A stretch of 64,000 nt of DNA, from positions 85,621 to 149,620 of the IMG/VR virus record IMGVR_UViG_3300046692_000144; one strand, written 5' to 3'. This document shows positions 3,449-54,000 of the stretch, in pieces. Numbering within the stretch: the first letter of the stretch is position 1; the number at the start of each line of letters is the position of its first letter. Source of the stretch: a virus. The notes beneath the pieces are model-generated. The model was given only the letters and a program-made list of their open reading frames with translations, did no database searches and was not told the DNA's origin. The translations under genes and the position numbers were made by a program.

Positions 3449-5146
3449 CTAGTAGTCTTCACGGCCCAAGCCGCCAAACATATTATCGTCGTCATCACCT
3501 GCACCCCAAGCATCTTTGTCGTCAAAACCGCCAGCGACAACACCGTGTGGAATGTGGGACCCAACTTCGAGCCCTTCGACGTATTTGAATTCTTGACGAA
3601 GAATCATTAATCCGATATTAGCAAAGACAACACTGTGAAGCCAGTCGTCTGGAATATCAGGATTCTTACAGTAGATCCTTCGCCCTGCCCGGGTCTCCTC
3701 TTCATGTACGCTCAGTGCATCTCTCCAGAACCCTGCCGTCTTCTCCCAGCTTGGGGTTTCGAAGCTATTGCGGCCAAGCTTCATCTTCATGATAACGGAG
3801 TCTATACACATTGTACGATCCGCTGCGAAGTACTGACCTTCTTTGTCCCAACGAAGAGCGGACTTAGATGCCACGTAGTTGATTGGTGCTACAAAGTCAC
3901 GACCCATCTCATTCTGCAACAACTGACACTGTAGAACACCAACCCCACGGTCGGAGGCAATGATCTGAGCCTTATACTTACGAGCTATGTACATTACGTG
4001 ACGGACTTGGTCCAAGATGTCTACACCGTTCAGACGCTCAGAATACAGTAGAAAGGTCTTGCCAAGCATGTTGGTCCCGATCACCGTAATGATCGTGTAG
4101 GACTTCGATGCAGAGGTTACAGACCAGTCCACCCCCAAAGACACTTGTAGGATACCCCGATCATCCGTAGGCCAGCCTTCTTCAAACTCAGTCCTCTCAG
4201 TGTTGCAGCAAAGCATGGCCTCTCGCTGAGTAAGGATCTTACCACCCATACCCGCTGCTAAGCCGAATACTTCGTTGGCTAGTTTCTGAGGGTTATACAT
4301 GGTGAGCTTGTCTTGCAGCTCCCTCCATTTCTTCGGCTTGGTACGAGCACCAATGATGAACTGAGGAATGTGTAGACCAATGCTGCGGGTAATCTCAGGG
4401 TTGAACGAAACCCAAGCACCTTTCGTAACGTCGATTACGTGATGGCAATACGGGCAGCCAGGACCGCCTTTATGCTCAAGGATCTTCATGCAGGTGTCGT
4501 AGTCATAAGCTGCGATATGACGACTGCACCCCTGACACTTCATAACCCATTCACACTGATTGCTCGCACGCCACTTTATCTCAAGGGTGTTGTTCTCAGT
4601 CTTGGCGGTGCCGGTAAGACGCTTGTAAGCGTAATCAGATGCGGAGAGGGTTTCGTACAGTACAGGCAGAGCGTCCAAACTCACGTCTTGGATTTCATCC
4701 ACGCAAAGCAAGTCGGCGTTGACTCCTCGAATACGGTCGGCGTCGGCTTCCGTCTCGGCGTATCCCAGATAGATCGTGGATTTGTTCTTGAAGGACTTCT
4801 GGAAAACGTTCTTCCGGGAAGAGGTGTCTCGATAGTACTTCTGGAGCAACGGTGACTCCATGAAGGTATCTAGGTAGCCAGTTGAGAAACGACTTGTCTG
4901 CTGGCTTAGAGGAGCGATGTACAAGGAGTTGAAATAGCTAGTCGAGGCACTGTTGGATACGAGCGCTCCTGAAAGGGACACCGACTTCCCTATCTGACGC
5001 CCGCACTTAAGCACCATCTCATCTGGGTACAGATCGTACACGTCAATGAAAGGTAAGTACTCATCGAAGGACAAAGGCTTACCTTTGATCTCTAGGAGAG
5101 CGGTTGCAAGTTGTGCCCGCGTAAGGGCCGTAGGTTTGTTGGTCAT
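3449..5146 (-). CDS. terL: Terminase large subunit
   Basis: 565 residues. The ATPase half has Walker A CGRQIGKS (residues 48-55) and Walker B LLCVDEIQD (about 145-153) with the catalytic Glu. A Cys cluster (CQGC ... CPYC) sits between the two halves, as in GpA-type terminases. The RNase H-like nuclease has GVDWS, ASDRGVG and a C-terminal D-W-L-H-S segment carrying acidic residues. The enzyme translocates DNA into the prohead and cuts it. The gene is first after the palindromic locus on the minus strand, with a late-promoter-like sequence ending a few bases before its ATG, so the leader must be very short. It is followed by the tail chaperone genes. Confidence 0.93.
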   Translation of the reverse strand: MTNKPTALTRAQLATALLEIKGKPLSFDEYLPFIDVYDLYPDEMVLKCGRQIGKSVSLSGALVSNSASTSYFNSLYIAPLSQQTSRFSTGYLDTFMESPLLQKYYRDTSSRKNVFQKSFKNKSTIYLGYAETEADADRIRGVNADLLCVDEIQDVSLDALPVLYETLSASDYAYKRLTGTAKTENNTLEIKWRASNQCEWVMKCQGCSRHIAAYDYDTCMKILEHKGGPGCPYCHHVIDVTKGAWVSFNPEITRSIGLHIPQFIIGARTKPKKWRELQDKLTMYNPQKLANEVFGLAAGMGGKILTQREAMLCCNTERTEFEEGWPTDDRGILQVSLGVDWSVTSASKSYTIITVIGTNMLGKTFLLYSERLNGVDILDQVRHVMYIARKYKAQIIASDRGVGVLQCQLLQNEMGRDFVAPINYVASKSALRWDKEGQYFAADRTMCIDSVIMKMKLGRNSFETPSWEKTAGFWRDALSVHEEETRAGRRIYCKNPDIPDDWLHSVVFANIGLMILRQEFKYVEGLEVGSHIPHGVVAGGFDDKDAWGAGDDDDNMFGGLGREDY

Positions 5147-5162: not shown

Positions 5163-5350
5163 TCCGCTAGCCCTATCTCATTGGTAGCCCCTAGGAGCGC
5201 TCCTGGCGATAGTAATACGTGAAGGACTACCGTTGGGTACACCGTAGCTCTATCAGTCCTCCAGCAGCCTCTCAGGAGCTCGTATACGAATCAGGAGCAT
5301 GCTCTACGGATCATATACGGACCAACCTCCAAAACGCCTCCCGGAGACCA

Positions 5351-5985
5351 TTGATCTAGAGCCTGCGCGGAACGAGGCCTTGATCTACGTGGCTTGCAGA
5401 GGAGCGTCTAAGCCGTAGACAAAACATGTCTACGCTAAGAGGCCCGTGCTAGAGCCTTTAGACAGAATCTTAGACATCTAGACAAAGTTTTGTCTAAGTC
5501 ATGTCTACGGCTGTAAGCCACGGCCCGTATGGCTTTGAGTGGTGCGCTAGACATTTAGACATGAATTTTCTCCACACAAGCACTAGGGCTCAGAAACCAG
5601 GAAATAAAAAACAAGAAATGGAGACAGTCATATACATACATATATATATTTATATATTTATAACTATATTAATGTACCCATGACATGGCTATGGCTCGTA
5701 GGTAGGGATCACAGAGTTGTTTTTTTATTTGTGTGTTTCCAAGCTCTGGGTGCTCGTGCGGAGAAAATTCATGTCTAAATGTCTAGCGCACCCCTCAAAG
5801 CCATACGGGCCGTGGCTTACAGCCGTAGACATGACTTAGACAAAACTTTGTCTAGATGTCTAAGATTTTGTCTAAAGGCTCTAGCACGGGCTTCTTAGCG
5901 TAGACATGGTTTGTCTACGGTTTAGACATGCCTCTGGAGGCCCCGTATATCAAGCCTTGTAGCCGCGCAGGCTCTATATCGCGTG
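5351..5985. repeat. Large interrupted palindrome with TAGACA/TGTCTA iterons (copy 1)
   Basis: Fills most of the 970-base gap between terminase and the PRTRC-like operon; no credible gene is present. The left arm (about 5351-5619) is repeated as its reverse complement in the right arm (about 5715-5985): for example CTACGGCTGTAAGCCACGG at 5505 and its complement near 5810. About 19 copies of TAGACA or its complement TGTCTA are spread over both arms. The centre (about 5620-5715) is very AT-rich with TATATA runs, flanked by A-rich and T-rich tracts. An almost identical element, inverted, lies at 57184-57765. Between terminase and the left arm (5163-5350) are only small palindromes such as AGGAGCGCTCCT. 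Candidate replication origin, partition site or recombination site; function not shown by sequence. Confidence 0.9.
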
Positions 5986-6020
5986 TTTCCGCGTGTATAC
6001 GCAATATTATCGAAATAAAA

Positions 6021-6116: not shown

Positions 6117-6314
6117 ATGGCTATCACTTCGACCAAGATCGTTATCAGCACCACTGGCCAGACCTTCATCGTTCCTGGCGCCAGCACTGCTGAACAGGTC
6201 AAAAACCTGTACGGTTCTTCGGTTCCTGCCATCAACTCGATGGACGCCGACGTAAGCGATGACGGCGAAGTCCGTACCATCACCTTCCGTGCTCGTACCG
6301 GCACCAAAGGCTAA
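6117..6314 (+). CDS. PRTRC system protein C-like, small ubiquitin-like candidate
   Basis: 65 residues, beta-rich, ending TFRARTGTKG. The terminal glycine and GTKG ending match what I remember of PRTRC protein C, which also ends in a Phe-Arg-Arg-Ala-x-Gly-Thr-Lys-Gly-type tail. In the cassette it sits first, ahead of B-like, JAMM (A-like) and ThiF genes. A short beta-strand-rich protein with an exposed C-terminal glycine beside an E1-like enzyme and a JAMM peptidase is a natural ubiquitin-like modifier candidate; that role is inference. Start ATG has AGGAG seven bases upstream. It has its own strong promoter and a terminator right after it, so it is probably made in excess over the rest of the operon. 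Confidence 0.7.
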   Translation: MAITSTKIVISTTGQTFIVPGASTAEQVKNLYGSSVPAINSMDADVSDDGEVRTITFRARTGTKG

Positions 6315-6344
6315 TTCCGAACCCTCGGTCTTAGCTTGATTGAG

Positions 6345-6375
6345 AAAGCCTCCCTAGTGGAGGCTTTTTCTTTTA
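6345..6375 (+). terminator. Intrinsic terminator after the C-like gene
   Basis: Stem AAAGCCTCC / GGAGGCTTT with loop CTAGT, followed by TTCTTTTA. It lies between the C-like gene and the next cassette gene, so downstream expression needs partial read-through. Confidence 0.85.
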
Positions 6376-6393
6376 GTCATCTGGAGGATTTTC

Positions 6394-7329
6394 ATGTTTT
6401 CATTTGATGAGAACGGGAACGTTCTAATTGACACTGAGCAGTCTGATGCGATTACTCGTGCGACTAGCAACCGCACAATCTCTGCTCGTGCAACTGCACT
6501 TACCCGTGGGCAGTACGTTCCGATCAACCCAATCACCGCTAGTACTCTGCAACCGTTTCTGACGAGCTTGGGTGAACGTTACAAAGCTGTTTGCAACAAT
6601 CTTCGTGGTGGCGCTTCCAGGATTGCCTACCCACGGAGTCCGTCTGATCTTGACGTAATCAGTAACCGTGCAGTTGCTGACTGGGTGTCCGTAGAACTAC
6701 AAGGGTTTGAAGGGCCTCTGCCTATCCTGGAAGTGGAAGGGGTTCGCACTATTGATTTCTTGCTTCCTGCGGACGGCGCGGTGATTCGTTACCTGGGCCG
6801 ACTGCTACACAACTCGAAAGGGTTGGTCCATGCGGAGATCGTTGTTAACGGGGATCGTCGTCCAAGTGCAGTCCGTACTCTGGACGCCTCGGAAGCGGTT
6901 AACCCTAACGGAGACCACACCATGCGTCTTCGTATTTTCATGCGGTATTCCCATGGAACTTCCGGGCGTTTTGAAAACGCTGTTCCTGATACGTTGGTGG
7001 CTCTTCTGAAGATGATGGATATCGAGGAGGAGTTTCCGGCTCTGCCACGAGTACTGAGAACTCTGTCTCGCAAGCTTCGTAGCACTACTGGCAACTGGGG
7101 TGAAGAACCTCGATTCCCGGTAGTTAACTTTCGAGGCAAGATGGATGGCTACATGAGCAACGGGCGAGTTGAACTCTCTCTCATCCATCACTTGTTTCAT
7201 GGTAACCGTTCTCAGATGTACTCCGACAAGAGTGTCTACGCGGTGATGGACGAAAACATGAAGCAACCACTCCTAGCCACTAAACCAATAACTTCAACTG
7301 GAGCTGCCCAATGGATAACGCCAGCGTAG
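6394..7329 (+). CDS. PRTRC cassette protein of unknown family (position of protein F)
   Basis: 311 residues, no signal peptide or membrane segment. ATG preceded by TGGAGG with seven-base spacing. I recognise no catalytic motif. In known PRTRC cassettes the gene after C is protein F, of similar size (roughly 300-400 residues); placement here agrees, but I cannot confirm family membership by eye. The body is mixed alpha/beta with several Arg-rich stretches (RRPSAVRTL, RVLRTLSRKLRS). Its 3' end overlaps the next start codon by 19 bases, indicating translational coupling. Confidence 0.55.
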   Translation: MFSFDENGNVLIDTEQSDAITRATSNRTISARATALTRGQYVPINPITASTLQPFLTSLGERYKAVCNNLRGGASRIAYPRSPSDLDVISNRAVADWVSVELQGFEGPLPILEVEGVRTIDFLLPADGAVIRYLGRLLHNSKGLVHAEIVVNGDRRPSAVRTLDASEAVNPNGDHTMRLRIFMRYSHGTSGRFENAVPDTLVALLKMMDIEEEFPALPRVLRTLSRKLRSTTGNWGEEPRFPVVNFRGKMDGYMSNGRVELSLIHHLFHGNRSQMYSDKSVYAVMDENMKQPLLATKPITSTGAAQWITPA

Positions 7330-7799
7330 CTGTAGAAGTAACTCGTTTCGACGGTCTTAACTTTGGTCAGGCATGCGCTCTTCTGTTTGCAGAGTGTAAG
7401 TCGAGCGCCCCAGAGGTAGACGGGTTTCAGAACCTCATCACGTATGTGAAGAGCATGCATGAGACTCTGGGTCTTGAGTTCAAGGTAGAGGAGTACTGGA
7501 ATCCGGAAACGGTTTCGGGTACGTACCCGGTGTGGCCTGACGCTATTGCTCGGTGGCAGCCTTCTGAGGCTATCGCAGGCCCAGTTACTCGGGAGAGCAC
7601 TCAAGCCCTTCTGAAAATACTGAGAGATACAACTCGGCTGGCAGATACTTACCGTCGAGGTATCGACGCTGTCAGTCAAAACTCTCAACGACGTGGTCGT
7701 GAAGGTCTCATCGATCCGAACATGCTCGTCCGTGCGGTTAACACCGCCCCTCTGTTCGTACCGGAAGCGTCTGAAGACGATGAAGATGACTTCCTCTAA
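7311..7799 (+). CDS. PRTRC cassette-associated protein, unknown
   Basis: 162 residues with a strongly acidic C-terminus (ASEDDEDDFL). GGAG lies seven bases before the ATG, inside the end of the preceding gene. No recognised domain; an aromatic-rich middle (EEYWNPETV, YPVWPDAIARW) is followed by helices. It does not match any PRTRC protein I can recall, so it may be a phage-specific addition or a diverged cassette member. Confidence 0.6.
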   Translation: MDNASVAVEVTRFDGLNFGQACALLFAECKSSAPEVDGFQNLITYVKSMHETLGLEFKVEEYWNPETVSGTYPVWPDAIARWQPSEAIAGPVTRESTQALLKILRDTTRLADTYRRGIDAVSQNSQRRGREGLIDPNMLVRAVNTAPLFVPEASEDDEDDFL

Positions 7800-7812
7800 C
7801 TGGGGGAGTTCC

Positions 7813-7822
7813 TGGTATAAGC
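7813..7822 (+). promoter_or_regulatory. Early-class promoter core (TGGTATAAG) before the B-like gene
   Basis: TGGTATAAG with TATAAG at 7816-7821 and ATTATGCAAGAG downstream. No good TTCAAT box at the expected distance. Leader about 38 bases with AGGAGG before the ATG. Confidence 0.6.
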
Positions 7823-7858
7823 ATTATGCAAGAGAAATCTTTAGCAATAGGAGGCTAA

Positions 7859-8545
7859 ATGTCTAATCAACTTTTGGATATCAAACTTTTTGATACCCAT
7901 GCTTTGATCACTCGACCCGGATCGAAGCTTGCAAAACCAGTTGGGGTTAAGGATCTGGTGAGTGTTCTGAGTGAGTCTGCTCAGAACGTTCTCAACTACT
8001 CCCGATCAGAAACTCTGCGTCTGCCGAGCAATGTCTACATGACGAGCTACGCAGGCAACATGCTGAACCTCTGCATGTATTTCGAACAACGTCCGCTCAA
8101 GGTTCGTCACATCGACGATAGCAAGGGCAAGGACTACGAGATCATGATGCCTAACGTGGTTATCCACTTGGCGCTCAAGGTCAGCAACAACGGCGGCAAA
8201 CACGAAGTAACCGGTGCATGGTACTACTGCACTCCGGAGACTCGTGACAACCTGCCGACAGTAATCCCGGGGAAACTGAAGGGCATCTTCGGCTGGTTGC
8301 CTTTCCCGAACTGCTACGAGAACTTCACTCTCTGCTATGGCCGAAACAGTGTGTTCCACGCAGTAGAAGGCGGTGACCTTCGTATCTTCAACGTCTACTA
8401 CGACGTGCTCGTCAACAGTGCGTTTAACAACGACCTGCGTCTGATGGGTGTGAACTTCGATGGTCGTAACCGTGACTGGTTCGCCAAGATGGCTGAGGTT
8501 TACAAAACCGAACAACGTTTCCCCTACGAACTGATTAAATTCTAA
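7859..8545 (+). CDS. PRTRC system protein B-like
   Basis: 228 residues; ATG preceded by ATAGGAGGC. The segment with AWYYCTPETR followed by an aromatic-rich stretch (PFPNCYENFTLCYG) resembles PRTRC protein B, which carries a conserved Trp/Pro/Arg segment in this region, and the position between the C/F-like genes and the JAMM gene is the standard B position. Published comparative analyses have related some proteins of such operons to E2-like folds; whether any of the Cys residues here acts as a carrier is unknown. Transcribed from its own early promoter and separated by 13 bases from the JAMM gene. Confidence 0.6.
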   Translation: MSNQLLDIKLFDTHALITRPGSKLAKPVGVKDLVSVLSESAQNVLNYSRSETLRLPSNVYMTSYAGNMLNLCMYFEQRPLKVRHIDDSKGKDYEIMMPNVVIHLALKVSNNGGKHEVTGAWYYCTPETRDNLPTVIPGKLKGIFGWLPFPNCYENFTLCYGRNSVFHAVEGGDLRIFNVYYDVLVNSAFNNDLRLMGVNFDGRNRDWFAKMAEVYKTEQRFPYELIKF

Positions 8546-8558
8546 GAGGTCCTGAACA

Positions 8559-9581
8559 ATGACTCTACAAGTAGTATTGCCGCATTTCTCGTGCATCGTC
8601 TCCAGCGACGAGGCTCTCAAGCAAGCTGAAGAAGAAGGCTACTGCGAGATCTTCATCATCTCCCAGACTGGTCTGTTCAAACGTACTGGCTTGACCCACG
8701 GTCGTAGCGTTACTGTTCCTTGTGCAGCGCTTCCAGGTAACGTTTCCCTGCCGAAAAGCGGTCAAGACGTTTCCAAGTTTTTCCCTGCTGGCAAGATCCC
8801 TAAGCACTTCCTGGCAAAGATCATCAGCTTCTTCAAAGCAGTAATGGTCGAAAACAAAGGCACCAACCTGGAAGCACAAGCGTTCGTAATCTGGAACCCG
8901 GAACTGGGCTACCACATTCGAATCCCTGAGCAGACTGTTGCCGGTGCTTCGGTAAGCTACTCCTGGGAAAACTTCCTGGGTCCAAACGATGTGGTTGTTC
9001 TGGACATGCACTCCCACAACAACATGAACGCGTTCTTCAGCGGCACCGACGACCGCGACGACAATGGCAACTGCACCATCTCAGGTGTAGTAGGCAAGCT
9101 GAGCACCACCTGTGAATTGGTGTTCCGCTTCAACCTGCCTGGCAACCTGAAGATCAACCCTCTGGGCATGGACTTCATCTTCGCAGAAGAGGAGGACAAC
9201 TTCGAAGTCCCAAAGGACTGGCTGAACAACGTTAAGCGTCAGGTGTACGTTCCGCCTGTTGTTCCGGTTGGTGGCTACAACTACGGCGGCAACGGCTACA
9301 ACAAACGTAACTACGGCAAGAACGCGACCGCTGGGGGTGTCGTCCACAACGAAAGCTTTCGCGGACAGAATGGCCAAATGGCCATGGATGATGCTGGACT
9401 AAGCCAGGACGACGCGGAGGTGCTGGCCAGTTTCGGTCACCCTTTTCCGTTTAGCGGTGAAGGAGGTAACCAACCCCCTTTCACCGAGCGCCCGCTGACA
9501 AAGGGGCGCAAAACTCAGAAGCAAGCGAGCAAGGTAACTCGGCTGAAAACGAAGGCTCGCAGCCCCCGGATTATTATCTGA
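8559..9581 (+). CDS. JAMM/MPN+ metalloprotease, PRTRC system protein A-like
   Basis: 340 residues in the zero frame. A complete JAMM zinc site is visible: H151-S-H153, then S161 and D164, that is H-x-H-x7-S-x2-D within DMHSHNNMNAFFSGTDD. This segment closely resembles PRTRC protein A (Mov34/MPN/PAD-1 family), which keeps the same spacing. JAMM enzymes hydrolyse isopeptide or peptide bonds after ubiquitin-like modifiers, so removal or maturation of the C-like protein is a natural inference. After the JAMM domain comes a Gly/Asn/Tyr-rich linker (from about 230) and an acidic stretch. The zero frame then turns abruptly basic (GRKTQKQASK...) and stops, whereas the -1 frame continues with natural-looking sequence; see the frameshift site and the extension feature. 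RBS AAGAGGT precedes the ATG. Confidence 0.85.
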   Translation: MTLQVVLPHFSCIVSSDEALKQAEEEGYCEIFIISQTGLFKRTGLTHGRSVTVPCAALPGNVSLPKSGQDVSKFFPAGKIPKHFLAKIISFFKAVMVENKGTNLEAQAFVIWNPELGYHIRIPEQTVAGASVSYSWENFLGPNDVVVLDMHSHNNMNAFFSGTDDRDDNGNCTISGVVGKLSTTCELVFRFNLPGNLKINPLGMDFIFAEEEDNFEVPKDWLNNVKRQVYVPPVVPVGGYNYGGNGYNKRNYGKNATAGGVVHNESFRGQNGQMAMDDAGLSQDDAEVLASFGHPFPFSGEGGNQPPFTERPLTKGRKTQKQASKVTRLKTKARSPRIII

Positions 9582-9856
9582 CGGGCGAAGATGGCTTTGC
9601 GAAGCTTGACTGGAAAAACCCAGCCGTAGCAGACGCAGCGCTGCCTCTGTTGGACGTGGACGAGGATGATGACTTCTGGGTTCTCCAGGAGACAGAAGGC
9701 CTGAACACGGCGATGGCGTACACCGTGGGTAAAAACTGTATCGACGCGATGCTTGCAGAAGGTCAGCTTGATTGGCTTTCCGAGCTTCTAGACTACGCAG
9801 AAGATACTCTCGGCTTGGACGCTCTCGCAGCAGAAGCGGGTGCCGAAAAGAGTTAA
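9470..9856 (+). CDS. Acidic C-terminal extension of the JAMM protein in the -1 frame
   Basis: Open -1 frame from 9470 (after a stop at 9467-9469) to the stop at 9854-9856. Translation from the slippery site gives about 116 residues rich in Asp/Glu/Ala with PPDYYLTGEDGFAKLDW and DVDEDDDFWVLQETEG, a composition like other proteins of this phage. No ATG or good ribosome-binding site exists at its beginning; only TTG (9650) or GTG (9656) without Shine-Dalgarno are available. The simplest reading is a fusion to the JAMM protein by -1 frameshifting, about 432 residues in total. A single-base sequencing error would give the same picture. Confidence 0.6.
   Translation, partial: PTPFHRAPADKGAQNSEASEQGNSAENEGSQPPDYYLTGEDGFAKLDWKNPAVADAALPLLDVDEDDDFWVLQETEGLNTAMAYTVGKNCIDAMLAEGQLDWLSELLDYAEDTLGLDALAAEAGAEKS
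9500..9506 (+). promoter_or_regulatory. Candidate -1 frameshift site A-AAG-GGG
   Basis: Zero-frame codons are ACA AAG GGG CGC. One-base slippage re-pairs Lys on AAA and Gly on GGG, then continues GCG CAA AAC in the -1 frame. The heptamer obeys X-XXY-YYZ and sits just after the -1 frame opens. An AGGAGG at 9461-9466 is about 34 bases upstream, too far for the usual stimulatory distance. Confidence 0.5.
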
Positions 9857-9860
9857 AGCT

Positions 9861-9870
9861 TGGTATAACT
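9861..9870 (+). promoter_or_regulatory. Early-class promoter core (TGGTATAAC) before ThiF-like gene
   Basis: TGGTATAACTAAGGTAGTGG with TATAAC at 9864-9869. No convincing TTCAAT box upstream. It starts a transcript that begins almost directly with a strong hairpin. Confidence 0.65.
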
Positions 9871-9872
9871 AA

Positions 9873-9907
9873 GGTAGTGGAGGATACCCTCCCTACCTTT
9901 TGTCTTT
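9873..9907 (+). promoter_or_regulatory. Leader hairpin with T-rich tail, attenuator-like
   Basis: GGTAG-T-GGAGG (9873-9883), loop ATAC, CCTCC-CTACC (9888-9897), then TTTTGTCTTTT. The shape is that of an intrinsic terminator placed between the promoter and the ThiF-like start at 9923. It could reduce transcription, protect the 5' end, or both. Confidence 0.6.
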
Positions 9908-9922
9908 TGGAGAGGCTCAGTA

Positions 9923-11188
9923 ATGTCTACGAATTTTACGTTTCAACTACCATACATTCCACAGACCGTAGTCGTATTCGGTTGCGGTGGTACGGGCAGT
10001 CGATTGGTTCCACCGATTGCTCAACTGATGTCCACCCTCCAAACTCTGGTTGCTCCTGAGCTGGTTCTGGTGGACTTCGACGAAGTAGAGGAGAAGAACC
10101 TCGCTCGTCAAAACTTCGCCAAGTCCGACATCGGCAAGAACAAGGCTACTGCCCTGGCATCTCGTTACTCTAAAGCGTATCCGACTCTGAAGATCACTCC
10201 GATCACAGTAGCTGCGGGTACTCCGGAGTATGGCGAAGCGCTGGGTATGTTCAACCTGCAAGACCGTCTGACGGGTCCAGCAGCGTATATCCTGGCGGTG
10301 GACTCGGCCAAAGCTCGTCGTGAGATCCTTGCAAGGGCTCTGTCTCCACAATCGGGTTCGGGTAACTCCAGTATCGTAATCGACGCTGGTAACGAAGACA
10401 TCTTCGGCCAGGTGAGCTTCTTCACCACGGGCAAGATCGGAAAGAATTCGGCCAAGGACCTGGAATTCATCTACAACTGGTATCAGGGCATTATCCCAGG
10501 TGACATGATCCTGAGCGAATTCCCAATCGACGTAATGGCTTATCTGAACATGCAGGAAGGCCAGTCCACTAAGTCGTGTGCTGATCTCGATCAGACCCTG
10601 GCGATCAACAACCTGATGGCCGCTCAGGTAGTGGCGTACGTTCAGAACTTCTTGATGGGTAAGCCTGTTCGTTCGTGGCGTACCAACTTCGATCTGTTCA
10701 ACGGCGTAAGCTACGACACGATTTCCGTTCCGGAGGTTCTTCGCCGAGCGGTAGAAGCGAAAACCAAAGGTCGTGAGGGTGAGACCTTCTTGAGTAACAT
10801 CCATCAGCGTATGCGTGCAAGCTCGGCTCCGATGGACGTGGTGTTCACTGACCTGAGCTCGTCTCTGGAAGATGAAATGCTTTCGGAAACTCCAACTCGC
10901 TACGAGACTGCGAAGATGATTCGTACCTCGTTGAACATGGGTCAGTTTGAACCGAGCTTGTTGTTCGAGGCGGACTTCCCTGACTACTACACCGACGCTT
11001 TCAAAGCTCTGTGGCGTAAAGGGTTCGAGCTTCCAGAAACTTCGGAAGACGAACGCAATACCTACCAGGTTGCTCTGAAGATCATGGAGGAGATGCAAGC
11101 AGAGGTAGCCGCAGCGGCTGCCGCAACTCAAGTCCCTACCATGGCAACTACCGAAGCTGAAGAAGAGGAAGAAGCCGACGAAGATTGA
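9923..11188 (+). CDS. ThiF/E1-like adenylating enzyme, PRTRC system ThiF family
   Basis: 421 residues. Rossmann nucleotide loop VVVFGCGGTGSRL at residues 16-28 (G-x-G-x-x-G), then LVLVDFDEVEEKNLARQNF, in which the acidic residues and the Arg match the ATP-binding signature of ThiF/MoeB/E1 enzymes, and DIGKNKA with the conserved Lys. Such enzymes adenylate the C-terminal glycine of a ubiquitin-like protein. Together with the small GTKG-ending protein and the JAMM peptidase this completes the core of a PRTRC cassette. A separate catalytic Cys is not certain; C194 in the SCADLDQ region is one candidate. The C-terminal 40 residues are Ala- then Glu-rich, probably disordered. RBS GGAGAGG precedes the ATG. 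Confidence 0.85.
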   Translation: MSTNFTFQLPYIPQTVVVFGCGGTGSRLVPPIAQLMSTLQTLVAPELVLVDFDEVEEKNLARQNFAKSDIGKNKATALASRYSKAYPTLKITPITVAAGTPEYGEALGMFNLQDRLTGPAAYILAVDSAKARREILARALSPQSGSGNSSIVIDAGNEDIFGQVSFFTTGKIGKNSAKDLEFIYNWYQGIIPGDMILSEFPIDVMAYLNMQEGQSTKSCADLDQTLAINNLMAAQVVAYVQNFLMGKPVRSWRTNFDLFNGVSYDTISVPEVLRRAVEAKTKGREGETFLSNIHQRMRASSAPMDVVFTDLSSSLEDEMLSETPTRYETAKMIRTSLNMGQFEPSLLFEADFPDYYTDAFKALWRKGFELPETSEDERNTYQVALKIMEEMQAEVAAAAAATQVPTMATTEAEEEEEADED

Positions 11189-15024: not shown

Positions 15025-15774
15025 TTACTTGTTCGCCTTTTCAATAGCTTTATTCTTTACATGCTTCGCCCAAGAAGCTGCGCCTACACCAGTTGCAGTA
15101 GCAGCTAAGTACGTACCGTATGCAGGGGCCATTTTCTTTAGGAACTTCTTAGCCACGCTGGCACCACGAGTCTTCAGGAGGTGTTTTGCAGGACTGAGAG
15201 ATGCTTGAGCCTCTTCCACTAGCATTGGTAGTGCAGAAGCAGCGACTGCGTACGGGGCTGCCTTTCGAACTTTCTCGTTATCGGAAGTAGCAGCATAACC
15301 GCCAGCCAATGCTCCTAGACCAAGAGCCGATCTTTGAGAAAGGGAGTGCATTATGAATTTACCCCTGACGCCTTTTCCACCGATGGCCTTCCGATACTTG
15401 TTGAAGCTGTGAGCGTGGCCATACTCATGCATTGCAAGGTCAGCACCTTTAGCATTTACGGTTGGACGCTTTACCCCCCTGAATCCAGGAGGGAGGTAGT
15501 GAGCAGCAAGCTCATGGTCGAACATCCCATTACCGCCCCTAATGACATGTCGTAGGTTTTTACTTTTCCGATAGGAGTTTACGTCTGACTCCGTAACTGC
15601 GGAGTTCCCTGCCAGGCCTTTGTGTGCGGCTCGTACCAGTCCATGGTTTATCGGGGTGGATAGGGCTATGGCCCCCGCAGTCGTCCCAACGACCGTACCG
15701 GTACGGGTCCACCCGTGTATGTGGTCCCTCTTTTTTTCAGTTGAAGCGATTTTCTCCAAGTAGATATTCATCAC
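15025..15774 (-). CDS. YLEK-tagged late protein with HEYGH zinc-peptidase motif
   Basis: 249 residues starting MMNIYLEKIAS. Around residue 115 the sequence DLAMHEYGHAHS contains HExxH, the zinc-binding and catalytic motif of metallopeptidases, followed by SLSQRSALGLGALAGGYAA and further hydrophobic Gly/Ala helices. A Gly/Thr-rich hydrophobic stretch (TVVGTTAGAIALSTP) lies near the N-terminus. A third zinc ligand cannot be identified with confidence, so peptidase activity is tentative. The next stop and start abut, so the gene is in the same transcript as ligase and 3'-phosphoesterase. Confidence 0.65.
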   Translation of the reverse strand: MMNIYLEKIASTEKKRDHIHGWTRTGTVVGTTAGAIALSTPINHGLVRAAHKGLAGNSAVTESDVNSYRKSKNLRHVIRGGNGMFDHELAAHYLPPGFRGVKRPTVNAKGADLAMHEYGHAHSFNKYRKAIGGKGVRGKFIMHSLSQRSALGLGALAGGYAATSDNEKVRKAAPYAVAASALPMLVEEAQASLSPAKHLLKTRGASVAKKFLKKMAPAYGTYLAATATGVGAASWAKHVKNKAIEKANK

Positions 15775-16622
15775 TTCTTATCCGAAAGTACGCCTACGAT
15801 AAATTCTCGTGCTCCGTCACCAGGTTCACGTTTCTTAGCGACCTTCTCCAAGAAGACGTTAGACTCGCTCGCCTTTTTATCATGCCCCTTATACGCTCGG
15901 TAGGCCGCATGTCCTATCATGGCCACACCTGTACCGATAGCTACCTTGCGAGTTACCTTGGCCGCAATATTTGCACGATCTACCATCTTCGAGTTCGTAG
16001 TGGCCCCGGTCACAAGCTCAGACATGTATCCTTTTGAAAATGGCTTTCCAGCAGCTTTTGCCTTAGCCATATAGTTTTCACGATGCAGTTCAATAGCAGG
16101 CTTCATCTTCTCCGCTACCTTCTTACCAAGGTACTTCGAGCTTGCAGCAAGGCCGAGGCCAGCATAGCCTTCCATCGCTACGGACGCATCGTTGTTCTTA
16201 GCAGCAGCGGCCTTTTCAAGGTAGGGGTTCTTGTCGTCCAACGCTTTCTTCCTGAGAAATAGCCAAGCCTTCTCACCGTAATGTTCAGGGGCTTTTTTGA
16301 TTAAGAAACGATCACCGTTGTTTAGCTCAAGATGATAGTCATTGTTGATTGTCTGGGAACTACCTTTCTGAGCGTAGTCTATTACTTGGGTACCTGCCCC
16401 GTACTGACCGTCAGGGATAACGATGCTTGGAGTAGTGGCGTAATGGGCCGTATGGACTGGCTGCTCCCATAGGATCGTAGGTTTACCTACTTCCGGGAAC
16501 TCCTTTTTAGACGCCCACGAAAAAGCTTTGTCATCAATTACGATTCTATAGTCGTAATGTAATCCCGCTCGTTTAGCGTCGTGCTTCTGTCTAACGAAAA
16601 GTACTGGGGTCGGATTCTTCAT
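15771..16622 (-). CDS. LigD-type 3'-phosphoesterase domain fused to YLEK-tagged segments
   Basis: 283 residues. Residues 1-125 match the 3'-phosphoesterase domain of LigD: FVRQKHDAKRAGLHYDYRI (9-27, with the metal-binding His14, His22 and Asp24), SWASKKEF, then IPDGQYGAGTQVIDY (69-83). LigD domains of this kind remove 3'-phosphates or 3'-ribonucleotides from DNA ends. After it come NPYLEKAAA (132-140), a hydrophobic helical part similar to other YLEK proteins, and NVFLEKVAK (255-263). The tag is thus internal and repeated, which would let a maturation protease cut the enzyme from its trailing parts. First gene of the late operon, with a late-promoter motif five bases before the ATG and no Shine-Dalgarno. 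Confidence 0.85.
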   Translation of the reverse strand: MKNPTPVLFVRQKHDAKRAGLHYDYRIVIDDKAFSWASKKEFPEVGKPTILWEQPVHTAHYATTPSIVIPDGQYGAGTQVIDYAQKGSSQTINNDYHLELNNGDRFLIKKAPEHYGEKAWLFLRKKALDDKNPYLEKAAAAKNNDASVAMEGYAGLGLAASSKYLGKKVAEKMKPAIELHRENYMAKAKAAGKPFSKGYMSELVTGATTNSKMVDRANIAAKVTRKVAIGTGVAMIGHAAYRAYKGHDKKASESNVFLEKVAKKREPGDGAREFIVGVLSDKK

Positions 16623-17410: not shown

Positions 17411-17908
17411 ATGGCGATTCGCCCTAGCACCACCGCTTCACCTCGGGATACGTTGAAATGTCTTCGACCTCACAAGGGTCTTATGTGTTTTAACTCCGAG
17501 GCAGGCCACTACGAGAAATACGCAGTGGTCACGGGAACCCCTAACAACGCGGGGTTCGTTCCTCTTGAAAAGCATGTAGGAGTAGTGCGCCTTGGCGTTA
17601 TCTACTTGAAGAATATCGGATCTGTTCGGAGTGGTTTCTATGCTGTCTTCCCTCGTGACATCTACCGTCGAAGAATCGACGCAAGACCCGTTCGACGACT
17701 CTCAATTGAGGAAGCAACTCTCCTCCTTGGAGGGAACCTTGATCACCTTGGATTGCCAGAAGCAACCCTTGGAGAACTCGATGCCTCAATCGAACCGCGA
17801 ACTATCGAAACTTCTCAGAGTGCAGAGCTCAGCGACGCTGACGTATGCTTCGAAGAACAAATCCGATCACTACAAGCTTCTGAAGATTCCGAAGAAGGGT
17901 GGTTATAG
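17411..17908 (+). CDS. Unknown protein overlapping the reverse transcriptase gene
   Basis: 165 residues; AGGAGG precedes the ATG. N-terminal half mixed beta (KYAVVTGTPNNAGFVPLEKH), C-terminal third acidic (SEDSEEGWL). Its last 128 bases overlap the start of the RT gene in another frame, and 278 bases if the RT uses the earlier GTG. Retrons often encode an accessory effector next to the RT; whether this is one cannot be told. Such a long out-of-frame overlap implies coupled or competing translation. Confidence 0.6.
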   Translation: MAIRPSTTASPRDTLKCLRPHKGLMCFNSEAGHYEKYAVVTGTPNNAGFVPLEKHVGVVRLGVIYLKNIGSVRSGFYAVFPRDIYRRRIDARPVRRLSIEEATLLLGGNLDHLGLPEATLGELDASIEPRTIETSQSAELSDADVCFEEQIRSLQASEDSEEGWL

Positions 17909-18743
17909 GGTCGTTTACAACCCAAGCAATCTCATGCGTTTGTTGCAGTTCCGAATCTTGAAGGAGGTCCTAGAGAAGTACTTCGAGATCCCGGATTACA
18001 TTTACGCTTTCGAACGGGATAAATCTATCCCGGTCATGGCGAAGATGCATGAGGGTAGCTTGCAAGTTGTAAGCCTTGACATCAAGGACTACTTTCCGAG
18101 CATTAAGCAAAACGTTCTGAAAGACTTGATGCAAAGCGTCGGCTTCGGAGAGTCTCCGGCCCGCACCTTGTCGGAGCTTATGACCTTAGGGCCAAATGTT
18201 CCGCAGGGTGGATTGACCAGTCCAAAGATTAGCAACGTGGTTGCCTCTAGGACTTTCGGGCCTGTGGTAAAGAAGTTCTGCGAAGACAGGGGCCTGGCCC
18301 TTACCATCTACGCAGATGACATCACGATTTCTTCGAAGGCAGACTTCAACGCCCAAGAAGCTATCGAGTTCGTGTCTGGGGTTCTCGTCGGCTTTGGCTT
18401 CCGGGTCAATAAGGCTAAGACGAAAGTAATGAAGAAAGGTACTCGACGCAGTCGTTTGTATGTGTGCGGTACCGTTGTGAACGAGAAGGTGAATCTCCTC
18501 CGGAACGAGCGTCTTCGGTTAAGAGCCGTCGTTCACAACAGTGTTAAAAATGGTCTGGAAGCAGAAGCGTCTAAGACCGGTCTCACCGCAAACGAATTCT
18601 TAATGAGAGTTCGTGGCAAGCTCAACTGGTTTGGACAGCTAAACCCTGAAGGGTCTTCGAAACTCATCGAACGATTCCAAGGGGCATGCACGGATTGGGA
18701 AGTGATCAACCGATCAACTCCTTACCAACACCAGCCTGGGTAA
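17781..18743 (+). CDS. Retron-type reverse transcriptase
   Basis: 320 residues from ATG 17781, chosen because GGAG lies six bases upstream and the length is typical of retron RTs; a GTG at 17631 would add 50 residues without better support. Motifs: KIPKKGGYRVVYNP (35-48), VSLDIKDYFPSI (97-108, first catalytic Asp), VPQGGLTSPKISN (140-152), IYADDITIS (176-184, catalytic YADD), and LYVCGTVVNEK (226-236) where retrons have their VTG motif. The C-terminal thumb (RGKLNWFGQLNPE) also has the retron pattern. All catalytic residues are intact. I could not find a convincing msr-msd RNA; upstream DNA is occupied by the overlapping gene. Role could be defence against rival phages or counter-defence. Confidence 0.88.
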   Translation: MPQSNRELSKLLRVQSSATLTYASKNKSDHYKLLKIPKKGGYRVVYNPSNLMRLLQFRILKEVLEKYFEIPDYIYAFERDKSIPVMAKMHEGSLQVVSLDIKDYFPSIKQNVLKDLMQSVGFGESPARTLSELMTLGPNVPQGGLTSPKISNVVASRTFGPVVKKFCEDRGLALTIYADDITISSKADFNAQEAIEFVSGVLVGFGFRVNKAKTKVMKKGTRRSRLYVCGTVVNEKVNLLRNERLRLRAVVHNSVKNGLEAEASKTGLTANEFLMRVRGKLNWFGQLNPEGSSKLIERFQGACTDWEVINRSTPYQHQPG

Positions 18744-40713: not shown

Positions 40714-42012
40714 ATGAATTTCGAAAGATACAAAATTAACTTCGACATCGAAAACGTCCTCCCTACACATCTTCCGTATCTGAGCGAGTTTTATAACTCT
40801 ACTCAAGAATTACGAAATGACGTGAAAGATCTGTTTTCGTTCCCACTGGCTAACAAGGAGGCAATGCCTTTCTACACAATCAGTGGCATAGCTTGTGATG
40901 ATATTGCGACCGTTGCTGAAGACGTCTACGGTGCGATGATCAACGCAGTCGATTACTTGTTTGAAAACCCAGTTCTGATTCCTCAGTTCTACGACTGTGA
41001 AATGCTCCGTTCAAACGAAGGTCTAGCCTTTATAGACTATGCTCAGCACACGTTCCGTCAAAAGAACATGCTGAGCCAAGCTTTGTACGGTAGATTCGAT
41101 ATGGCCATTGATCCGAAGACAGACCGAGTTACTGGAGTCTATGAGTTCAACGGCGATACTCCCGTGATGCTATTCGAGTCCACTGCTTTAGAGAGTGACT
41201 TCGTTCGTCAGATCGATATTACGGGTGAGTCTCAATTCAACGAGTACTACGAACGTATCTCCGAGTCTCTTCGTCAGCATCGACTAGGCCTCTGCGATAA
41301 GTTTGCAATTGTTTTTAACTCCGACTACATCGAGGATATGGCTACTTGCGAAATCCTTACCGAGCTCTTGGGTCAGCACGTAACTGCTTTCATGGTTGAT
41401 ATCAAAGAGCTAGATTACGATCATGCAGGCGGTAGTAAACCTTTCATATACAGTGATATCGTTCTCGATGGCATGTTCGTTCTTTCCCCGTGGGAAGAAA
41501 TGGTGACGGCGTTCCCTGCTGCATTCCTTAACTGGAAGCAATGGGCAGACTCAGTTGTAATCATGGAACCGTCTTGGAGATGGTTCATGTCGAACAAAGG
41601 TGTATGGGCGTTAATGACATGCATGATGTCTGAAGAATCACGTTGGGCTCATGCCTGGAAGGACCTCCCCTTACTCAAGACGTACATGAGCAAAGAACCC
41701 CTTCTCGGCAATCCACAAGTGTCCAAACCTTCTCTTGGTCGCCTATCCTCCAACATCGAATTTCTCGGTGCGGATGGTGAAGTAATCGTATCTAGTGAAG
41801 GGTACTACGGTGACACAGAACGGGTGTATCAAGAACTCTGCCCTGCTGGTAGTGTACGTCAAGGCAAGAACTTCATCGCAGGTGTTTGGATGGCCCCACA
41901 CTGTTCTCGAAACAACCTCTACGCTCGTGCAGGTACTCTGTGCTTCCGAGAGTTTGATAACGAAATCATTGAGACAATGAACGAACGGTTCATTCCTCAT
42001 TTGGTTGTGTAA
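40714..42012 (+). CDS. YgiC-like glutathionylspermidine synthetase-family ATP-grasp ligase
   Basis: 432 residues. Characteristic GSP_synth (PF03738) features: GRFDMAIDPKTDRVTGVYEFN followed by GDTPVMLFES, EPSWRWFMSNKGVWALM and LLPTY-like LLKTYMSKEPLLG(N), then YYGDTERVYQEL. The family forms an amide bond at ATP cost; GspS joins glutathione and spermidine, but YgiC/YjfC relatives lack the amidase half and their substrates are not established. Here too no amidase domain is present. Phage-borne and early-expressed, together with a YgiB-like lipoprotein, suggesting an envelope or small-molecule modification. Confidence 0.8.
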   Translation: MNFERYKINFDIENVLPTHLPYLSEFYNSTQELRNDVKDLFSFPLANKEAMPFYTISGIACDDIATVAEDVYGAMINAVDYLFENPVLIPQFYDCEMLRSNEGLAFIDYAQHTFRQKNMLSQALYGRFDMAIDPKTDRVTGVYEFNGDTPVMLFESTALESDFVRQIDITGESQFNEYYERISESLRQHRLGLCDKFAIVFNSDYIEDMATCEILTELLGQHVTAFMVDIKELDYDHAGGSKPFIYSDIVLDGMFVLSPWEEMVTAFPAAFLNWKQWADSVVIMEPSWRWFMSNKGVWALMTCMMSEESRWAHAWKDLPLLKTYMSKEPLLGNPQVSKPSLGRLSSNIEFLGADGEVIVSSEGYYGDTERVYQELCPAGSVRQGKNFIAGVWMAPHCSRNNLYARAGTLCFREFDNEIIETMNERFIPHLVV

Positions 42013-49925: not shown

Positions 49926-51077
49926 TCATTTTTTAAGTGAGATGGTGATCGGTGTATTCTCGTCCACCGTACCCGCCTTGAGTGCTGCAAGGACGTGCTC
50001 TTCACTTTCAAAGTGCTGGGGCTTTTTGTCCATATCCGCTTCAGTCAAGTGAACCGAACCAAGGATAGCTTCGTGGCCAGGTGCAATCAGAGATTCCCCG
50101 TAACCCATACGGGCGTCGTAGATCTGCTTCGAAGGCATGAGCTTATCTCGTGCTTCTTTAACCGCAGCAGGACCCATAGGCAAGAACAAGGACAATGCGT
50201 CACCGTCGTAGTCCCCTGCGAACATTGGTAGGTGCAGAGGGTTTACACCAATGGAGTTACCTTCAACCGGAACTGGGAAGAACGCCGAGATGTTGGACTT
50301 CATCAGAGTAGGGTTACGGTTGGCAATGATCGGAACTTCTTTGATGATCTTACCGAATGAAGAAGTAGCCGAATCGTTTCGCTCACTGTACGCCTTCTCA
50401 GCGTTCATGTACGAGTGACCTTGACGGGTCATATCTCGAATGACGTGAAATTTGTACATGGACCAAAGTGTATCTTTCGGAATCGCCATCTCGTTGAAGC
50501 CAAGACGTGGTTCAGCATAGATAGTGCCTCGACCCGAGAAGTCCTGTTTCTTACTCAAAATCTTGCTGTGGAAGAGACCCGCCTTTGGCGAACCTTTACC
50601 AGCAATCTGAACCAGCAACCCTTTTAGATCACGGCCACGAGAGTTAGGGGAGATAGGGTCACCCAAACCAACAACTGCTTTCAGACCGTTGTACATCTCC
50701 TTCCGAGCATTGACCAGCATAGTAGATTCGTCCGGCAAAACGCCTTTCAAACCTTTGAAGGTCTCGTTTGAAACGATGTGGTCACGGTAGAGCTGGTTGA
50801 CGTCAGAGTATTCAAGACGGCCTCCGCCCTGAACCATCATAGGACGAGTAACGGGAGGAACCACTGCTACGTTGCGAACAACGTAGGCTTGGTCCGGGGT
50901 AACGCCCATTTTCTTAAGGCCCGCAAGATACTTGATCTTCTTAATGGCCTTGTCTCTTTTAGCTACCGAAGTAGCATGCACTGCTTCATGTGAGTTGTCT
51001 TTCAAACTCTGGTCAATGTTGATTGCACCAAGGAGGGCCTCAAAGGCCGCTCCCCCCATCAGTACTGGTTCTGTCAC
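49926..51077 (-). CDS. RNA polymerase beta' subunit, N-terminal half (catalytic)
   Basis: 383 residues. The catalytic magnesium motif is FAGDYDGDALS (residues 287-297), equivalent to NADFDGDQM. Before it are KQDFSGRGTI (177-186, like VDYSGRSVI) and ANRNPTLMKSNISAF (252-266, like NRAPTLHRLGIQAF), and after it the region leading to the break. Its ATG overlaps the stop of the beta gene by four bases. The protein ends at residue 383, after the active-site half; the rest is encoded at 42831-44651. Confidence 0.93.
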   Translation of the reverse strand: MTEPVLMGGAAFEALLGAINIDQSLKDNSHEAVHATSVAKRDKAIKKIKYLAGLKKMGVTPDQAYVVRNVAVVPPVTRPMMVQGGGRLEYSDVNQLYRDHIVSNETFKGLKGVLPDESTMLVNARKEMYNGLKAVVGLGDPISPNSRGRDLKGLLVQIAGKGSPKAGLFHSKILSKKQDFSGRGTIYAEPRLGFNEMAIPKDTLWSMYKFHVIRDMTRQGHSYMNAEKAYSERNDSATSSFGKIIKEVPIIANRNPTLMKSNISAFFPVPVEGNSIGVNPLHLPMFAGDYDGDALSLFLPMGPAAVKEARDKLMPSKQIYDARMGYGESLIAPGHEAILGSVHLTEADMDKKPQHFESEEHVLAALKAGTVDENTPITISLKK

Positions 51078-54000
51078 ATCGTCACCTTCTTAATCACCTT
51101 ACTGTCGTCACCATGGGTAACAAGATGGAACTCTTTGTCCCCTACCTTTTTCAGACCGAGTTCACCAGAAGCGAGCTTGTCGAATTCAGTAGATGTTAGA
51201 CCTGTAAGGTGCTTAACCGCGTTCTCGAAGACTGGGTTTACGACAGGCTCTGCAAGCTTGTAGTGTCCCCACTTCTGACCACGAATACCACCAGTGATAC
51301 TCATGTCGAACAGACCGCCTTCTTCTGGCTCCATGTTCTTGGCAGCAACGAAGTCAGCGTTCTTGATCTCACCGTTGCTCATCTCAAGTATGTCTTTGTC
51401 CATGAGAGGAGAGGCAGTGATGTGTTCGCTATCCACGTTTACCTTGACGCCAGAACCATGCAGGTAGTCGATGAACTTCTTAGTAGCAAAGGTAGTGTCC
51501 GGCTTAGGCAGAGGCTGACCGCGCAGAAACTTTGTCCAGTACTCCGAGTTTTCTTGAGACTTGGAAGTACCGATTTCTTGCAGGTTGTGGTTTGCACCTG
51601 AGCCCAGCAGACCGAGGAACTCCATGTAACCAACAGACTTCGAACCTTCGTGACCACCCTTGGTAGGTTGGAGTACGTTGTCGTAGCCACCCACGTTACG
51701 AGCCGACAAGTTCTGGTCAGTAGTCTTATAGAGTTTCATCATGTACTGAGGACCGGCCAGGACTTTTGGATAAGTCTTGCCATTCTCAGGATCTACTACT
51801 TCATCCGTGTCGCTCAACCCATGCGCTTTCAGTTCGTCAGTCAACTCTTGAACGTTGGAGTTCTTCGAGAAGTTGTGAACTAGGTACGGAGAACCTTTCT
51901 TACGAGCAATCTTCGCCGCAGCTACTTCCATCAACTGACCAAGGTTTACCCGGCTGGTTACAGAGGCAGGGTTGAGCAAGAGATCGTATGGCTTACCGGT
52001 TTCTTTGTTGTATGGCATTTTCTCATCTGGCAGGATAAGAGACACGATACCTTTGTTACCATGCATACCAGTCAGCTTGTCACCGATTTCCAGTTGCTTA
52101 ACTGCACGAAGAATTACACGAATCTCTTTGGCATCGACGTGACGGTCAACTACCTCAGCAGGGTCATCGTAGCCCCACAGATCTGCGTTAACACGGTAAG
52201 GGTTAACCAGTGTCTTATGTAGACGTCCAAGCATACGGTCTTCAGCCGTCGGCTCTCTTTTTTCAAGTACCGCATACACCGGGTCTCCGTGTTTCAAGAT
52301 AGAGCCCACGGTTGCAACGCCTTGTTCATCCAAGTGGCTCAGTTGTTCTGCTGTGAACTTACCTGGGAAGTAACGTTTAAGCAATGATTTACGAGGAACG
52401 GAGTACTCCATGATGTTGTAATCGACTTTGTATGCGTGATGGCTAGACAAGCTATCAGAGGCAGTCTGGGAGATTACCAATCCGTCTTCGTGGTTGAAGC
52501 CCTTGTAAGGGATGTAGGCGACGTCCAGGTTCCTACCTAGGGCAAGGACACCATTCTTAGTGTAGTTGTTCTCAGCGACGATCTGGCCTGCCTTCACGGC
52601 CTCACCAACCGCAACGTGAGGAGCCTCGTCATCCAGGAAACCTTTCATGTTGAACGGAAGGTTCTTAACAAGGTTCACTTTGTGGACGGTTCCGGTGCTG
52701 CTCTCAATATGAACTTCAGTAGGGGTGATCTTGCGAATAGTGCCGTCTACTGGGGATTTCGTACTGAACACATTAGCGATAGACTTCACAAAGGAAGTGC
52801 CGCTACCGGTAGCAGTCTGAACCAAAGGCTCTTCACGATTAACCAAAGACAGCGCCTGAGGAATAGCCTTACCAGCCATGGTCAGACGACCCGGGTGGTT
52901 ACTGTTCAGGAACGGTACAAGGTTAGTAGTTACGGTGTACAGGCTGTTACCACTTGCAAACCAATACTGTACCTTGCTCCGATCAACTTCAGAAAGTACG
53001 CCATGGTCTTGGGCCTGAACTCTGGCCTTGCCCTCTTGGTTTGGGAAGCCAACGACCGAGGTCATCAAATCGTGAACAGAGAGAGTGTGCTTCCCACCCT
53101 TGTTATCTACGACCGTCGAGTAAAGAGTTCCGTAATCGTCGCGATGAGCAGAAATTGTAAAGCGTAGATCAACACCAGCGTGATCAGACTCAGGAGTACG
53201 ACTAGGGTCAAGAATCCCAGTATGAGACGCATCGATATTTCGAGCAGATTTAGGAACGGCTCGAATATTGGAAATACCACCTTCTTGAGCGCCAAGAACC
53301 GTAACCTTGCCCACGTTCTCAATCGATTCGATAGCATTGGTTTCCTCCGGGGTGGATACCAGGGTGGATTTCAGGATGTAGTCTTGGTAGATCTTGTTGA
53401 ACGGCTTGGCAGGAATCACCTTACGGATCTTCGGATCAGCGTGGTCTACACGTTCAAGGTTGAAACCAAGTTTGTTCTTAACCTTAGTAACACTTTCGTG
53501 CTCACGGCCAGTTTCAAAACGACGAGCCAGGAAGTCTGGAAGGTTCTGTACACGCTTGAACTGAAGGCTATCCCGGTTATCTTCCTCACGATCACCACGA
53601 CGTACTGCAACCATGTTGGCCATAGCACGCAACAGGGTCTCATGGGTGATGTTCGAAAAAGGTTTACCAAGAGTGATCTCAGTAGATTTCGCAGAAAGAG
53701 TGGAGCCCGCAAACGCTTCCTGCAAGGCAACGATCATGTCTTCGTACGACAGGGTTTTATCCTGTTTGAACTTGGAAGTCAGTTGACCATACAAAGTCTT
53801 GATTGCTTTCTGTTCTTGTCCTTTTGCAGCCGCAACGTTTCGCTCCCACAATTCTTCCGGGAGGTACTGAAGAATCTCCTTAGGCGAAATGTGAAAGATC
53901 TGCGTGAAGATCGGGGCTACCAGTACACGAGAGGTGGACTTATCCGCATTCAGATAAATCAACTCGTGCTCCGGGTCAAGAGTCAGCGAGAAGCTACGGC

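Follow-up and report, generated by a model that had tools for sequence, protein, structure and literature searches.

A cassette of genes in a 64,000-nucleotide stretch of viral DNA (the window; bases 85,621-149,620 of the 165,460-base IMG/VR virus record IMGVR_UViG_3300046692_000144) probably encodes a complete ubiquitin-like conjugation cascade of a phage: a ubiquitin-like modifier (Ubl), an E1-like activating enzyme, an E2-like conjugating enzyme and a JAMM metalloprotease, with two further proteins, one of about 300 amino acids (aa) and one smaller, encoded between Ubl and E2. The six open reading frames (ORFs) that a first-pass annotation had listed here were all found at the positions, in the order and on the + strand reported; one small ORF between the JAMM and E1 genes had been missed (Table 1). 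The gene for the terminase large subunit (TerL) is transcribed away from the cassette on one side, and a block of - strand genes starts at 11247 on the other. Profile matches in the order of PRTRC (ParB-Related, ThiF-Related Cassette) operons, ratios of non-synonymous to synonymous substitution (dN/dS) of 0.19-0.40 for Ubl, E2, JAMM and E1 against one syntenic relative, and the recurrence of the gene order across a phage clade place the cassette far beyond chance.

The E1-like protein matched the ThiF family (PF00899, E=3.6e-17) above the Pfam cut-off and the NCBIfam profile TIGR03736 (PRTRC_ThiF) with E=8e-22 and 77.7 bits, against a curated cut-off of 144.75. Its core was also matched by the PADLOC E1-E2 models, it has no rhodanese domain, and a sequence search of solved structures returned E1 enzymes for it; the same search gave no match for E2, JAMM or Ubl. 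The GxGGT loop, D51, D53, NLxRQ, K74, D127 and C219 were invariant in 25/25 sequences. The JAMM protein is a separate JAB protein with an N-terminal extension, and R49 is invariant in this N-terminal part. It exceeded the Pfam cut-off for PF14464 (Prok-JAB) and matched TIGR03735 (PRTRC_A) with E=2.5e-20 (72.8 bits versus a curated cut-off of 101.8); E105, H151, H153, S161 and D164 were invariant in 27/27 clade sequences. Fetching loci by motif makes conservation of active sites partly circular, and the comparison was therefore repeated on contigs fetched by terminase alone, where the active-site motifs also held, except in intron-split JAMM genes and one divergent E1 (L263). In Acinetobacter phage ME3 and in two IMG/VR phages, the JAMM gene is split by a group I intron at the codons of its HSH active site.

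An AlphaFold model of the 65-aa Ubl had a beta-beta-alpha-beta-beta arrangement with a loose C-terminal tail (predicted local distance difference test score, pLDDT, 86), and its best Foldseek matches in the PDB were the beta-grasp domains of protein L/G, at a modest significance of E=5e-3. The modelled protein is a stand-alone beta-grasp-like modifier with a C-terminal Gly, of the sort that operons of type 6d (see below) require. Among 25 relatives G62, K64 and G65 were invariant, and the tail read GTKG, GNKG or GAKG. The earlier suggestion of an E1-JAMM-modifier system, with GTKG as the predicted activated tail, is supported. In some Ubls residues follow the Gly (Cys in L002, Ala in L018, INYSK in Vibrio phage D69 and longer tails in L021, L229 and L252), so that trimming would be needed before activation.

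Head-to-tail repeats of Ubl were found in at least eight phages, with GTKG at every junction: three units in one ORF of Vibrio phage D69, five units in L018, and two in L012, L014, L025, L026, L099 and L265. The two units of L012, L014, L016 and L026 were 100% identical as protein (60 residues compared), and their DNA was only 83-88% identical. The DNA differences are synonymous, so that every unit is kept to one and the same protein, a mark of purifying selection on the Ubl. As in polyubiquitin genes, the repeats have the make-up of a precursor from which identical functional copies are cut. In a bacterial (Anaerolineae) locus (L201, 6288-7109) two Ubl units ending in GEKG are followed by an extra C-terminal stretch; tandem Ubls thus occur outside phages too.

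The protein between the small cassette gene and the JAMM gene had been called B-like. A relation to PRTRC_B is probable, through relatives; its description is corrected to that of a predicted E2-like conjugating enzyme, which would complete the cascade. The assignment comes from relatives (PF14460) and from an invariant Cys159. In an alignment of 30 E2 sequences, plasmid PRTRC_B and non-clade viral loci included, 25 members matched PF14460 (Prok-E2_D), and five phage E2s (L009, L012, L019, L090 and L107) exceeded its gathering score. TIGR03737 (PRTRC_B) was matched by 20/30 members, including the control plasmid and the non-clade viral loci; the window protein itself gave no match to it. P148, N151 and C159 were invariant in all 30 sequences, within a motif P-F-P-N-x-Y-x-D-G-x-M-C, of which P-x-x-N-x7-C was near-invariant (L265 has extra residues between Asn and Cys and keeps the Cys). 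The N-x7-C spacing equals that from Asn to Cys in the HPN...Cys motif of eukaryotic E2s. An AlphaFold model of the protein (pLDDT 89) matched, among viral models, that of ME3 gp136, whose gene stands just before the JAMM gene of ME3 (E=2e-4).

Single-protein scans for relatives returned one relative or none, and alignments were needed to find more. Profile sweeps of fetched loci gave the order TerL(-) / Ubl - ~300 aa - small ORF - E2 - JAMM - E1(+) for a clade of large phages that includes Salmonella phage Arash; in a branch formed by Vibrio phages D69, D181 and D148 the cassette lies some kilobases from TerL. A terminase-anchored scan was conducted with contigs that carried at least 8.9 kb of flank, TerL identity of at least 42% defining the clade and of 35% or less its outside. 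The cassette was present in 37/37 clade contigs, several of which are near-copies of one another; in 35 it was complete and beside TerL, and in L017 and L018 it was located elsewhere on the same contig. None of the 18 contigs with TerL at 35% or less and enough flank had a cassette gene, and PRTRC_A was absent from 7/7 records with such a TerL that were searched whole. The clade E1s formed one group (support 99). Distances between cassette proteins followed those between TerL proteins (Mantel r of 0.94 for E1, 0.87 for E2, 0.90 for JAMM and 0.91 for Ubl; 0/2000 permutations). Such co-divergence points to vertical inheritance, unlike that of a passing cargo gene. The gene set is core and not cargo, and these phages seem to have ubiquitin-like tagging of proteins as a built-in trait.

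The ~300-aa gene was found between Ubl and E2 in 29/29 clade loci examined, followed by a small gene in most of them. The window's ~300-aa protein had no family match in profile searches, and hhalign gave no link between it and the versions of other groups; the small protein likewise showed no homology between groups. The ORF between JAMM and E1 has a counterpart of 85 aa in L002 and none in many clade members.

The type 6d operon was described by Iyer, Burroughs and Aravind (2006) as a row of genes for a Ub-like protein, an alpha-helical protein, an E2-like protein, a JAB and an E1-like protein (PMC1779556, Table 1). The phage cassette has equal components in equal order and shares with it a JAB with an N-terminal extension, a small Ubl with a C-terminal Gly, and an E2-like protein that has a conserved Cys and no HPN His. 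It differs in being a core block beside TerL, in the tandem Ubl genes of phages, in having two genes in place of the helical partner, which is not recognisable in phages, and in an E2 that has an invariant FNxDL instead of the downstream His. PRTRC, found on plasmids and integrative elements (NCBIfam TIGR03734-TIGR03742), is the plasmid form of this bacterial Ub/E2/JAB/E1 operon. The proposed kinship with PRTRC proteins is supported by NCBIfam profile matches for C, A and ThiF and is probable, through relatives, for B; the order Ubl - 311/162 - E2 - JAMM - E1 matches C - F - B - A - ThiF of a Polaromonas plasmid. Of the PRTRC order E-C-F-B-A-ThiF, E is absent here, and the 311- and 162-aa proteins, which stand in the place of F, have no detectable homology to PRTRC F. 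PRTRC_E and PRTRC_F were absent from the whole 165,460-base record, the contig of L002, Arash and D69, and both were found in a control plasmid. ParB and the actin-like D, already noted as missing from the window, were likewise absent from the whole record, Arash and D69, and both matched in the control plasmid. Since the C, A and ThiF matches of the window all lie below curated cut-offs, E, F, D and ParB are lacking, and the E2 is without the type-6d His, we conclude from the sequences that the cassette is a variant, carried by phages, of the type-6d operon for Ubl conjugation, and that it would work like a PRTRC system but is not one.

CBASS (cyclic oligonucleotide-based antiphage signalling system) Cap2/Cap3 and other bacterial E1-E2-JAMM antiviral systems (PMC10097602) share the E1, E2 and JAMM logic, but the phage set is encoded by a virus, has its own Ubl and separate E1 and E2 polypeptides, and lacks a CD-NTase. 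The tail-assembly proteins I and K of Lambda/T1 are also a phage-borne pair of Ub-like and JAB/NlpC proteins encoded near virion genes (PMC1779556), but come without E1 or E2, and their Ubl is of another family. No published description of a phage PRTRC/type-6d set was found in the open-access literature, nor a known function of PRTRC/type-6d operons in the literature searched.

In the mechanism that we propose, the JAMM protease would cut after each GTKG of repeated or tail-extended Ubls, releasing free monomers. The E1-like protein, to judge by its invariant residues, would adenylate the terminal Gly and take the Ubl on Cys219; the E2-like protein would accept it on Cys159 and pass it to amines of target proteins. 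The JAMM protein may also reverse the bond between Ubl and target, and the ~300-aa and small proteins would be obligate partners, perhaps substrate adaptors.

Particles of Arash have been analysed by mass spectrometry, and 116 proteins were listed (PMC10585845). The view that this proteomics was unreliable, gp251 being in a wrong frame, was replaced, from the fit of coverage to length, by an off-by-one numbering slip near the end of the table. Coverages fit GenBank lengths as printed in 40/40 tested rows up to Gp238, and those of Gp244, Gp247, Gp248 and Gp251 fit only when shifted by one (4/4 testable). With the numbering corrected, the particle preparations contained E1 (77.17% coverage), JAMM (61.41%), the 320-aa partner gp250 (76.25%) and E2 (100%, a row assigned by the shift alone, 100% coverage fitting any length). 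The annotation of gp251 in Arash (OQ632216) follows a wrong frame; read in the correct one (L003:107-307), the gene encodes a Ubl of 66 aa that ends in GTKG. The Ubl could not be found in the table because it was not annotated.

Several observations weigh against the proposed cascade. The Ubl matched PRTRC_C (TIGR03738, E=1.3e-3, 18.8 bits versus a curated NCBIfam cut-off of 45.95) and Prok_Ub (PF14454, E=0.067, below the Pfam cut-off) weakly. Taken alone, the 228-aa E2-like protein of the window gave no significant family match, although its relatives do. It lacks the classical HPN His, and no His is conserved after C159 in the manner of type-6d E2s, N190 and D192 being invariant there. When its model was compared with the PDB by Foldseek, no match had an E-value below 0.1 and no E2 structure was returned; the E2 fold assignment therefore rests on family membership, and a UBC (ubiquitin-conjugating enzyme) fold is not shown by structure. 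Conjugation itself is predicted from the genes. The Arash list includes many metabolic enzymes, and the cassette rows have few unique peptides, so that carry-over is possible, as the Arash authors themselves allow (PMC10585845).

The cascade most likely acts late in infection. The earlier suggestion that it is used early found no support: the cassette lies beside terminase, and its proteins were detected in Arash particle preparations. As to purpose, we tentatively rank a role in assembly, with virion or late proteins of the phage as the tagged targets, ahead of the tagging of host or defence proteins, at somewhat less than even chances; such substrates are favoured because the set is constant, stands beside terminase and occurs in particle preparations. 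Nearly as likely is counter-defence, in which the same biochemistry would be directed at host defence proteins or at host transcription or degradation machinery, and detection in particles would reflect carry-over or delivery by the virion. Related E1/E2/JAMM systems do serve hosts in defence against phages (CBASS, PMC10097602), and the proteins of Arash particles also include subunits of RNA polymerase and further enzymes that might enter the cell with the DNA (PMC10585845). However, closely related phages usually differ in their counter-defence genes, whereas the cassette is constant throughout the clade and diverges in step with terminase. Rather doubtful is a wider form of virion and late-protein tagging, according to which Ubl tagging of their own particle or late proteins would be a standing step in the life cycle of this large-myovirus lineage, with polyubiquitin-like genes, a cascade, a dedicated deconjugase and parts carried in the virion.

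Two further explanations do without late tagging, and both appear improbable. The E1 could form a Ubl thiocarboxylate for sulfur transfer, as in ThiF-ThiS or MoeB-MoaD, with no protein conjugation; it does match bacterial ThiF/MoeB models, and ThiS/MoaD are the classic prokaryotic relatives of ubiquitin (PMC1779556). But an E2-like protein and a JAMM accompany the E1 in every case, the tail reads GTKG rather than GG, Ubl precursors have multiple units, and the cassette showed no gene for a rhodanese or for any other part of sulfur metabolism; a sulfur carrier has a slim chance. Slimmer still is that of replicon maintenance of the PRTRC type, by which the cassette would help the phage to persist or partition like a plasmid: homology and gene order are common to it and plasmid PRTRC operons, but ParB, D, E and F, all four present in the control plasmid, are missing from the window record, Arash and D69, and the authors who described the isolated relative Arash report that it lacks genes for lysogeny (PMC10585845).

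Bacterial ubiquitin-like systems tested so far serve mostly in antiviral defence. New here are a type-6d-like cascade as a core possession of phages, found clade-wide beside TerL, its tandem Ubl genes, and the detection of its proteins in Arash particle preparations; the polyubiquitin-like polyUbl genes bear on the origin of such genes. With the cascade core in phages, one of which (Arash) grows on a laboratory host, deleting its genes offers a way to test what type-6d operons as a class do. Since the residue before the last Gly is an invariant Lys, trypsin would leave one Gly (+57.02 Da) on a target; this is the mass of carbamidomethylation, so that conjugates would be overlooked by routine proteomics.

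Table 1. Features of the cassette locus (window positions unless a locus is named) and introns in related JAMM genes
Feature	Position	Strand	Remarks
Ubiquitin-like modifier (PRTRC_C/Prok_Ub-like)	6117..6314	+	65 aa; C-terminal ARTGTKG, then stop; last Gly codon 6309-6311
~300-aa cassette protein, function unassigned	6394..7329	+	311 aa; PRTRC_F position
Small cassette protein, function unassigned	7311..7799	+	162 aa here, usually ~85 aa in clade
E2-like conjugating enzyme (Prok-E2_D / PRTRC_B relative)	7859..8545	+	228 aa; predicted catalytic Cys159 codon 8333-8335
JAMM/JAB metalloprotease, predicted deconjugase and Ubl-precursor processing enzyme	8559..9581	+	340 aa; HSH-x7-S-x2-D; E105, H151, H153, S161, D164
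Small ORF between JAMM and E1, lineage-specific	9650..9856	+	43% identical counterpart at same place in L002
E1-like/ThiF activating enzyme	9923..11188	+	421 aa; GCGGTG nucleotide loop, NLARQ, K74, D127; predicted catalytic Cys219 codon 10577-10579
TerL, synteny anchor, outside pathway	3449..5146	-	phrog_675, E=5e-55; divergent neighbour throughout clade
Group I intron in JAMM gene, Acinetobacter phage ME3	L007 5856-6192		81 bits
Group I intron in JAMM gene	L243 6081-6356; L237 6646-6920	-; -	29 and 33 bits, below gathering score, E about 1e-5

Between the terminase and Ubl genes lies a very long imperfect palindrome (5342-5991) with arms of 242 nt that are 89% complementary and a TA-rich centre. 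It is common to L002 (4396-4995, 76%) and was not found in other clade members; it may serve as an origin or in packaging or regulation, or be a hairpin element that was inserted here.

Further from the cassette, the window encodes a retron-type reverse transcriptase (17631-18743, +; best PADLOC model RT_III-A, 204 bits; RVT_1 match), with an ORF for a reverse transcriptase at the corresponding place in L002 (16347-17459); an Rfam scan of the window, to which the search for its RNA was confined, found nothing. A LigD-type 3'-phosphoesterase domain is encoded near the cassette (15771-16622, -), and its L002 counterpart has a long extra C-terminal part. A glutathionylspermidine-synthase-like ATP-grasp protein (E=7e-39) is encoded at 40714-42012 (+). 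At 51074-54430 (-) there is a gene for a protein like the beta subunit of multisubunit-type RNA polymerase, whose C-terminal stretch weakly resembles the start of beta' (Rpb2 domain 6, Rpb1 domain 1).

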